From positions 1 through 39,208 of the IMG/VR virus record IMGVR_UViG_3300033388_002023: a DNA stretch of 39,208 nt; one strand, 5' to 3'. Both the position numbers and the translations under genes were made by a program. The notes below the pieces were generated by a model. It saw only the letters and a program-made list of their open reading frames with translations, had not been told where the DNA came from and did not search any database. Origin of the DNA: a virus. Below are positions 29,479 through 32,500 of this stretch, piece after piece; the stretch's first letter is position 1; the number at the start of each line of letters is the position of its first letter.

Positions 29479-29946
29479 ATGAGCACCCCCAAAGCCGTCT
29501 ACCGCCTGGATATGGAGCGCTGGCCGTTTATCCAGAGTCAGCTAGTCCAAACGCCAATGGACGGCACCCATCAGGTAATCATCGAACCGATACCCAAAAG
29601 CGACGACGCACGCGCCACAGCAGCCCAGAGGCGGACTATCTGGGCATGGCACACCCAATTAGGCAAAGAGCGCGGAGATAGCAAGGAGAGGCGGCACGAC
29701 CTATTCAAGTACCGCCACGTCTGCCCGATTCTGTTGCGGGATGAGGTGGTTGAATCATTTCAGGATCTGTACGAAATGGCAGGGCAGAATCCAAAGATGC
29801 TCAAGGCCCTGACTTCGGTCATATCCCATACCCTGCTGAGCGTTAAGCAGATGCGGGAAGCGATGGACGAGTATGACCAGATTTGGGCTAGGCGTGGCAT
29901 CGTGTTTGAGTATCGGCGGGATTATGACGACGCGATGGGTAAATGA
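29479..29946 (+). CDS. ninB: NinB/Orf-like recombination protein
   Basis: 155 residues. The N-terminal strand region and AQRRTIWAWHTQLGKERG stretch (about 52-70) follow the NinB/Orf pattern of a helix with Gln-Arg and Trp; a C-terminal helix (MREAMDEYDQIWARRGIVF) also fits. These proteins load RecA-like or SSB-like factors in place of RecFOR. Sequence is divergent from lambda, so the call rests on the pattern and on the location in a nin-like region that ends with NinG. The next gene overlaps by ATGA. Confidence 0.55.
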   Translation: MSTPKAVYRLDMERWPFIQSQLVQTPMDGTHQVIIEPIPKSDDARATAAQRRTIWAWHTQLGKERGDSKERRHDLFKYRHVCPILLRDEVVESFQDLYEMAGQNPKMLKALTSVISHTLLSVKQMREAMDEYDQIWARRGIVFEYRRDYDDAMGK

Positions 29947-31223: not shown

Positions 31224-31769
31224 CAGGCGGTAACGGCAAGCAATAGGGCTTGTTCATCCGCATATTGACGTACCCTGTGATATCCAGGGCATGCCGGAAC
31301 CGAGCCGGTAGTGGTGAATGCGTAGCGCTGATACGCGAGCCTTTGGCGACGAGCACACCAGCAGGGTGAAGTGTGCGGGCTGGCAAATTGGAAAAGGCTA
31401 AATGTGGGCGTGCCTTGATCTGCAAAGGCTGGAAACCACACGATTGACGGGGCCACATGATCCTCGCAAGATTGCCAAGCCGGAGATCAACACCGGCCAC
31501 CACAGCCCGAGCCCACCGGGTAACTGATGTGCGGCCCCCGTGGGTATGGGGGTCGCTGTAGGGCTTAAATGGAAGCGCAGATATTGGCCGTGGCAACCAA
31601 TTAAAAAACTGTCCTGGGTGAACCATTCACCTTCAGCGGGGACCGGAACAGAGGTGTTACCACCAATGCAACCCGTCAACTCCGAAGCTGTAAACACCTG
31701 GGAACCTGCGTTTCACATTTAAACCTTACCACTCCACCAATAGCCGCCTAGACTGGCGCACCAGTACCG
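31224..31769 (+). ncRNA. Large structured non-coding RNA (candidate)
   Basis: A 546-bp stretch with no credible gene, followed by a terminator. On the plus strand it holds a chain of hairpins: CCCTG/CAGGG (31273-31289), GCGTA/TACGC (31320-31336), GCACAC/GTGTGC (31353-31376), TGTGG/CCACA enclosing GCCTT/AAGGC (31403-31440), GCGGCCCCC/GGGGGTCGC (31531-31556, 9 bp with one wobble), GGTGAA/TTCACC (31617-31631) and AGGTGTT/AACACCT (31652-31699). Leftward frames are open here but their products have no protein-like pattern. Strand is inferred from the surrounding operon and terminator. It does not match a large phage RNA family I can name with confidence. Confidence 0.55.
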
Positions 31770-31788
31770 AAGCCCCTTCGGGGGCTTT
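31770..31788 (+). terminator. UUCG-loop terminator after the candidate RNA
   Basis: AAGCCCC, TTCG, GGGGCTT: 7-bp stem with tetraloop followed by TCTGG; the T-tract is short, so read-through to NinG is likely. Confidence 0.65.
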
Positions 31789-31806
31789 CTGGCAACAGGA
31801 GGTAGC

Positions 31807-31947
31807 ATGCAAATAACAAAGAAACAGCGCGAGAAGCTCAGGGCCGAACGATTCCATGACATGCGGCCCCACATATTCGATAAGCTGATATTGATGCTCC
31901 CCGGCGTTCTGGCTGGGATTGTGGTTCCGCCGCACTATGGCAAATAG
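31807..31947 (+). CDS. 46-residue protein before NinG
   Basis: Starts with AGGAGG 4 bases upstream. Basic, helical start and hydrophobic C-terminal half (LILMLPGVLAGIVV). Overlaps NinG start by 11 bp. Small nin-region proteins of unknown role are typical here. Confidence 0.68.
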   Translation: MQITKKQREKLRAERFHDMRPHIFDKLILMLPGVLAGIVVPPHYGK

Positions 31948-32500
31948 CCGCAAGTGTTGCAAAAAATGCAAGGGTTGGTTCGAGGCCTCCAGCATGATCA
32001 AGGTTCCCGCCGGTACGTTTTGCGGGCATGCGTGCATCAAGGCCTACATCGATGACGTGTACGCGAAGAAGTCACAAGCAAAAGCCAAAGACGACCGGCG
32101 AGACTTGAAGAAGCGAAAGGATGCACTCAAAACCAAAGGAGACTGGCTCAGCGAGGCCCAGACGGCGTTTAACCGGTGGATACGCCTAAGAGACAAGGAT
32201 AGGCCCTGCATAAGCTGTGGACGCCATCACAGCGGCCAGTATCACGCAGGCCATTATAGGACAGTCGGGTCATGCCCTGAGTTGAGATTCGAACCCCTGC
32301 AGGTCCACAAGCAATGCAGCCCTTGCAACCTGCATCTATCCGGCAACATACTCGAGTACAGAAAAAACCTGATCGGCGTTGTCGGTCAGGATATGGTTGA
32401 CTGGATTGAGGGGCCCCACGAAATGCCACACCGGACAATCGATGATATCAAGGCGATAAAGATCAAGTATCTAGCCAAGTGCAGGGAGCTAACGGAATGA
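31937..32500 (+). CDS. ninG: NinG/Rap-like recombination nuclease
   Basis: 187 residues. Lambda NinG (Rap) cuts Holliday junctions and D-loops and boosts recombination. The family pattern is clear: an N-terminal CCKKC (7-11) with C29 and C33, a basic coil (40-66), then CISC (91-94), HAGHY, and HKQCSPCN (C127, C130) with LSGN. The Cys/His set forms an HNH-like zinc site. It closes the rightward unit; the 75-residue gene follows with an ATGA overlap. Confidence 0.92.
   Translation: MANSRKCCKKCKGWFEASSMIKVPAGTFCGHACIKAYIDDVYAKKSQAKAKDDRRDLKKRKDALKTKGDWLSEAQTAFNRWIRLRDKDRPCISCGRHHSGQYHAGHYRTVGSCPELRFEPLQVHKQCSPCNLHLSGNILEYRKNLIGVVGQDMVDWIEGPHEMPHRTIDDIKAIKIKYLAKCRELTE

Follow-up and report, generated by a model that had tools for sequence, protein, structure and literature searches.

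A tRNA-like RNA element in the nin-like region

Positions 31305-31511 of the window, i.e., the complete stretch of 39,208 nucleotides of viral DNA analysed here (record IMGVR_UViG_3300033388_002023), contain one representative of a phage RNA family, apparently uncatalogued and without an Rfam name. For this element homology and covariation, unlike folding energy, exceed chance. At the level of sequence comparison, covariation and homology demonstrate a common frame, a kissing loop-loop contact within it, a wide spread among phages and a resemblance to STnc100. The element is probably a phage small RNA in which a tRNA-like kissing frame surrounds a phage-specific insert and which would act in trans in the manner of STnc100 or PasD. 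Among the phage records searched, some 250, P1 included, have an unannotated relative, and relatives also occur in about one in ten of the Pseudomonas genomes sampled. No paper naming the family was found in a search of the open-access literature, with most subscription papers outside its reach. The features of the gap that contains the element are as follows.

31305-31511, plus strand: tRNA-like RNA element, whole match of the family model R1 (cmsearch), with a blastn motif common to phage records
31311-31316, plus strand: 5' strand of the acceptor-like stem, GUGGUG; the helix covaries across the family
31317-31319, plus strand: AAU spacer, nearly invariant across the family
31320-31336, plus strand: D-like hairpin GCGU-AGCGCUGAU-ACGC; the D-stem pairs covary
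31337-31478, plus strand: variable insert of 142 nt, forming its own cluster among 98 insert clusters
31479-31497, plus strand: T-like hairpin GCCGG-AGAUCAACA-CCGGC; the loop is complementary to the D-loop in five of six pairs
31498-31503, plus strand: 3' strand of the acceptor-like stem, CACCAC, pairing with 31311-31316 and followed by AGCC
31542-31745, plus strand: second structured piece with a long imperfect stem, status uncertain
about 31771-31786, plus strand: UUCG hairpin GCCCC-UUCG-GGGGC with a short U-run, possibly a weak terminator

The gap extends over 583 nt (31224-31806), from the stop of a 129-aa ORF (31223) to a 46-aa ORF starting at 31807. A protein search of the window against PHROG/Pfam-type profiles placed NinB upstream (29479-29946) and ninG (31919-32500, PF05766) beyond the 46-aa ORF, and the region is therefore regarded as nin-like; the same 39.2-kb record also encodes a tailspike with a P22-type head-binding domain. 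Protein coding within the gap was rejected, as homologs numbered zero for every frame tested against PHROGs, Pfam and phage genomes (tblastn), including the longest one, a minus-strand frame of 158 aa that spans the gap. Thus, the gap shows no coding signal, in line with an earlier, sequence-only reading of this DNA, which had taken the products of its open frames to be unnatural.

The same reading had likened the length of the gap and its density of structure to the large ornate RNAs of other phages. The predicted fold of the gap (-220 kcal/mol) lies close to that of shuffled sequences (-209±6.7 kcal/mol; z -1.6, with 7 of 100 shuffles as good), so that hairpin density alone is weak evidence, and folding energy was dropped as an argument for the gap as well as for the element alone (z -0.27). 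A single 546-nt RNA of the GOLLD, ROOL or HEARO kind would account for the long non-coding gap and for the additional long-stem piece, but homology is limited to 31305-31511 and no GOLLD, ROOL, HEARO or other large Rfam model matched. Since the conserved part comprises only some 200 nt with a tRNA-like layout, we consider such an ornate RNA very improbable. More generally, the gap fits no Rfam family: apart from a trivial generic UUCG hairpin, nothing was obtained at the gathering cut-offs or at E≤10.

The second piece consists of arms at 31542-31571 and 31716-31745, which are 70% complementary and enclose a further inner stem and hairpins (z -1.9; 5 of 200 shuffles as good). It was tried as a second tRNA-like element and rejected: the long stem is suggestive, but no homologs of 31542-31745 were found and a 4-bp loop match is within chance. 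With regard to the UUCG hairpin at 31771-31786, which had been read as a terminator, the hairpin itself is present, but its U-run comprises only three residues and the terminator scan of the window did not call it.

Recognition of the family

Searching the gap by blastn at E≤1e-5 returned nothing, whereas relaxing the threshold to E≤10, against NinG relatives and phage genomes, exposed the T-arm motif. This short motif, GCCGGAGATCARCRCCGGCCAC, is shared by up to 203 phage records, in which most of the listed places are unannotated. A second constant motif, TGAATGCGCAGGCTGATGCGC, lies 80-200 nt upstream of it, and complementary sequences occur just outside both. A pattern scan of viral contigs yielded 91 stretches, and a second one allowing longer inserts at least 120. 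An exact-pattern search for the 3' part of the gap returned nothing, and the element was not found in the homologous gaps beside relatives of the gene just upstream.

The family was represented by a covariance model, R1, and its anatomy was derived from an alignment of 53 elements. In the 39-kb window R1 matched 31305-31511 with 37.5 bits (E=1.3e-8); the two weakest matches listed from other phage loci (548 kb) reached 16.4 and 14.1 bits and were not member-like. A descriptor scan likewise identified in the window an acceptor of at least 6 bp, the AAU spacer, the D-arm and a T-arm stacked on the acceptor.

A constant frame with kissing loops

The alignment of 53 elements shows one order: an acceptor-like stem, AAU, a D-like hairpin, the insert and a T-like hairpin, directly after which the acceptor 3' strand follows. 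The acceptor-like stem, which closes the element, comprises 6-9 bp in the family, and the D-like hairpin has 4 bp and the loop AGGCUGAU. The T-like hairpin, GCCGG-AGAUCAGCR-CCGGC, is stacked on the acceptor, and the relatives are 80-230 nt in length. The acceptor of the window element has only 6 bp.

The acceptor helix is paired in 90.6% of the cells of the 53-element alignment, while at most one or two acceptor bases had been part of the search pattern. Across the whole structure, 120 cells with changes on both sides were counted against 37.3±4.3 in shuffled alignments (none of 500 as high), and nearly all of these fall in the acceptor. Sliding the partner strand by one to three columns lowered overall pairing from 96% to 28-50%. 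In a wider set (n=31), 14 pairs, two kissing pairs among them, were changed on both sides compared to 8.2 after shuffling. The claim that the gap holds a structured non-coding RNA is supported for 31305-31511 by relatives and by compensating base changes. In addition, RCC after the acceptor is enriched, occurring in 47% of the family compared to 16%.

The family D-loop GCUGAU is the reverse complement of the T-loop AUCAGC, and this complementarity is retained where the loops differ: co-varied pairs are ACUGA/UCAGU in P7, GCGA/UCGC in L034 and L068, GCCA/UGGC in L052, and GUCGAU/AUCGAC in L143, a variant that Shigella phage DS8 shares except for the outer pair. The window loops form five of six pairs, four of them contiguous, with a single C x A mismatch. 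Since the T-loop of the window is AUCAAC, elements with this loop were predicted to tend to carry GUUGAU as their D-loop. Scanning for the T-arm only provided five distinct complete elements (L372, which has no clear D-arm, was not counted), and in four of them GUUGA(U) indeed accompanied AUCAAC, compensating the mismatch. The fifth (L367/L380/L393) keeps GCUGAU and the same C x A mismatch as the window. With these compensatory loops, a non-canonical tRNA elbow can readily be tested.

Several side observations concern L034 (3374-3756) and L143 (5540-5925, minus strand), both of which harbour clusters of several tRNA-like elements. One element there combines a 14-bp acceptor, with CCA after it, and an insert in which a tRNA-like T-arm is nested, and others possess canonical T-arms.

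The insert varies within the constant frame

While the frame is constant, 124 distinct inserts fall into 98 sequence clusters. P1 and contig L131 carry an identical 46-nt insert within different acceptors, and in the L158 version of this insert CGCAA/UUGCG is replaced by the compensatory CGUGA/UCACG. As modules recur and a compensatory change occurs within an insert, the inserts are not free-floating noise. Strong folding was dropped as a hallmark of the insert, since the excess over flanking DNA is weak (z -0.57 compared to -0.31). A recurring module, CUAGG-hairpin-GGCUGCUAUGAAAA, in which the hairpin sequence varies, was observed in the inserts of L227, L276, L316, L327 and L337.

In the mechanism that we favour, the window RNA would be made within the rightward nin-region transcript, and the frame, with its acceptor/T-arm stack and RCC tail, would be matured and protected like tRNA ends, possibly through RNase P-like recognition. 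The tRNA-like frame would in turn protect and present the phage-specific insert. The insert may then act in trans on RNA or protein of the host or of a rival phage as putative targets, most likely by base pairing with RNA, as is thought for STnc100 and PasD. The R1 family would thereby supply a common frame for STnc100/PasD-like RNAs, and the claim that function resides in the insert, which could be exchanged between frames, is open to test. We propose more tentatively that tailed phages, among them P1, D3 and HK620, might use the constant kissing frame as a general display platform for hypervariable cargo directed against hosts or rival phages, of which STnc100 would be one branch. A precedent for such a display is the engineered tRNA scaffold, in which a foreign RNA replaces the anticodon arm of a tRNA frame; the R1 elements differ in being natural and phage-borne and in having non-canonical D- and T-loops.

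Distribution among phages and genomic neighbourhoods

A consensus query matched 248 phage records. Carriers include P1, P7, D3, PAJU2, HK620, N4-like phages (ZC03 and IME11), Ackermannviridae phages and Burkholderia phage CSP3. The R1 model identified the element in 10 of 99 Pseudomonas genomes; a pattern scan of the genome collection gave only three Pseudomonas matches, because the pattern is strict. In RefSeq E. coli the element is without annotation.

The relatives occupy different sites: some lie between Q and lysis genes, some within tRNA clusters, and some alone on the strand opposite to their neighbours. The elements of P1 and P7 lie in the ban/tRNA region, that of D3 within a tRNA cluster and one in a Klebsiella prophage directly after four tRNAs. 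Position in the nin region is therefore no family trait, and the role in recombination, packaging or late control that the sequence-only reading had derived from it is unsupported. The window element sits inside an operon, and the promoter scan of the window found no promoter-like site for it. Across the family, promoter-like sites upstream (16% compared to 5%) and terminators downstream (22% compared to 5%) are enriched, and in Shigella phage DS8 and in BUCT610 the element is located on the strand opposite to the flanking genes, which together suggests that many phages carry it as an independent RNA gene.

These positions also bear on the possibility that the element is a signal in cis, whose tRNA-like structure directs an RNase P cut of a polycistronic phage mRNA. 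The stacking of the T-arm on the acceptor would suit such a signal, as would the RCC tails and the location of the window copy within an operon and of the HK620 copy between pR' and tQ. However, the opposed orientation in DS8 and BUCT610 is at odds with it, and a pure cut site leaves unexplained why P1 and L131 share the same 46-nt insert within different acceptors and why a compensatory change arose inside the insert between L131 and L158. We regard a cis-acting processing signal as rather improbable.

A tRNA occurs within 500 bp of 13% of the elements but of only 3.5% of random positions, and in 17 of 18 cases it is on the same strand. This proximity is consistent with a counter-defence decoy, in which the insert would sequester or inhibit a putative nuclease or defence protein of the host and would be diversified by arms races. 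That a single constant frame carries 98 clusters of inserts agrees with this explanation, and so does the fact that both temperate and strictly virulent phages possess the element. However, none of the inserts is similar to a known anticodon arm, and the nearest studied relatives are regarded as mRNA-pairing RNAs, which makes the decoy an unlikely, if reasonable, alternative to an RNA that pairs in trans.

Two annotated ORFs overlie an element and partly a tRNA, namely plp of P1 (L192 1455-1832, minus strand) and orf86 of D3 (L194 1405-1719, plus strand), and both look doubtful. In Aeromonas phage 2_D05 (L342) the consensus query matches two places, and the block from ninG onward is annotated twice in tandem.

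Relation to known RNAs

STnc100 (Rfam RF02076), which shares the layout, is the closest known family; it and its structural relative PasD are small RNAs of enterobacterial prophages. STnc100 is encoded by Stx2 phages (PMC12370729) and has been verified by Northern blot in EHEC (PMC5331693). PasD, reported to share ancestry with STnc100, adjoins Q and lysis genes (PMC13192938), and it depends on Hfq and has numerous targets in RIL-seq (PMC8550237). Like PasD, many R1-family elements are found near Q and lysis genes. In the Rfam alignment, STnc100 displays the same succession of a closing stem with GGUG/CACC at its end, AAU, a D-like arm, a variable part and a T-like arm on the stem, and the 5' flank GTGCTCTTTCCG is common to both groups (25% and 11%, compared to 0.9% at random). 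R1 matches the STnc100-class copies of P1 (E=3e-5) and P7 (E=7e-5). Sub-threshold STnc100 matches (33-45 bits at a cut-off of 47) adjoin the elements of P1, P7 and Magnus.

However, the STnc100 model misses the R1 elements checked and gives no match up to E=10 in the window. The D-arm of STnc100 is longer than that of R1 elements, and its T-arm reads CCGGG-AGGCA-CCCGG as opposed to the R1-family T-loop AGAUCAGCR; the window T-arm and D-arm sequences accordingly differ from those of STnc100, the layout being common. A clear six-pair kissing contact was looked for in STnc100 and was not evident. Because of the absent model match, the differing loops and the lack of an evident kissing contact, the window RNA is not filed under STnc100. 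By analogy it may nevertheless work like STnc100, and the two may be kin.

The family shares with tRNA and tmRNA the order of acceptor, D-arm and T-arm, a loop-loop elbow and an RCC-rich 3' tail. It differs in that the D/T contact comprises 5-6 Watson-Crick pairs, the T-loop usually has 9 nt, an insert replaces the anticodon arm and a strict CCA is missing. A tRNA that is degenerate or interrupted by an intron, or a gene of the tmRNA type, would fit the layout, the tRNA clusters nearby and the sub-threshold tmRNA matches that lie elsewhere within some gaps. Yet neither ARAGORN nor Rfam (RF00005 and the tmRNA models) identified a tRNA or a tmRNA in the window, the Rfam tRNA and tmRNA models miss the elements, and strict CCA and anticodon arm are both absent. 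As the covariation is purifying, a decayed tRNA is ruled out, and this explanation as a whole appears scarcely credible.

The T4 species 1 and 2 RNAs (rnaC and rnaD) resemble the R1 elements as stable misc_RNAs beside a phage tRNA cluster, and rnaC additionally has a T-arm-like hairpin with the canonical T-arm CCGGGUUCGAAUCCCGG (L191 909-1172, minus strand). They differ in having no matching D-loop/T-loop pair, and as R1 finds nothing in the T4 region (L191) at E≤10 they were rejected as members. They may be distant analogues although R1 misses them. Finally, sub-threshold matches of permuted and alpha tmRNA models were observed in unannotated phage gaps (L186 943-1144, L193 1190-1392 and L345 1482-1590), and these may represent further tRNA-like RNAs.
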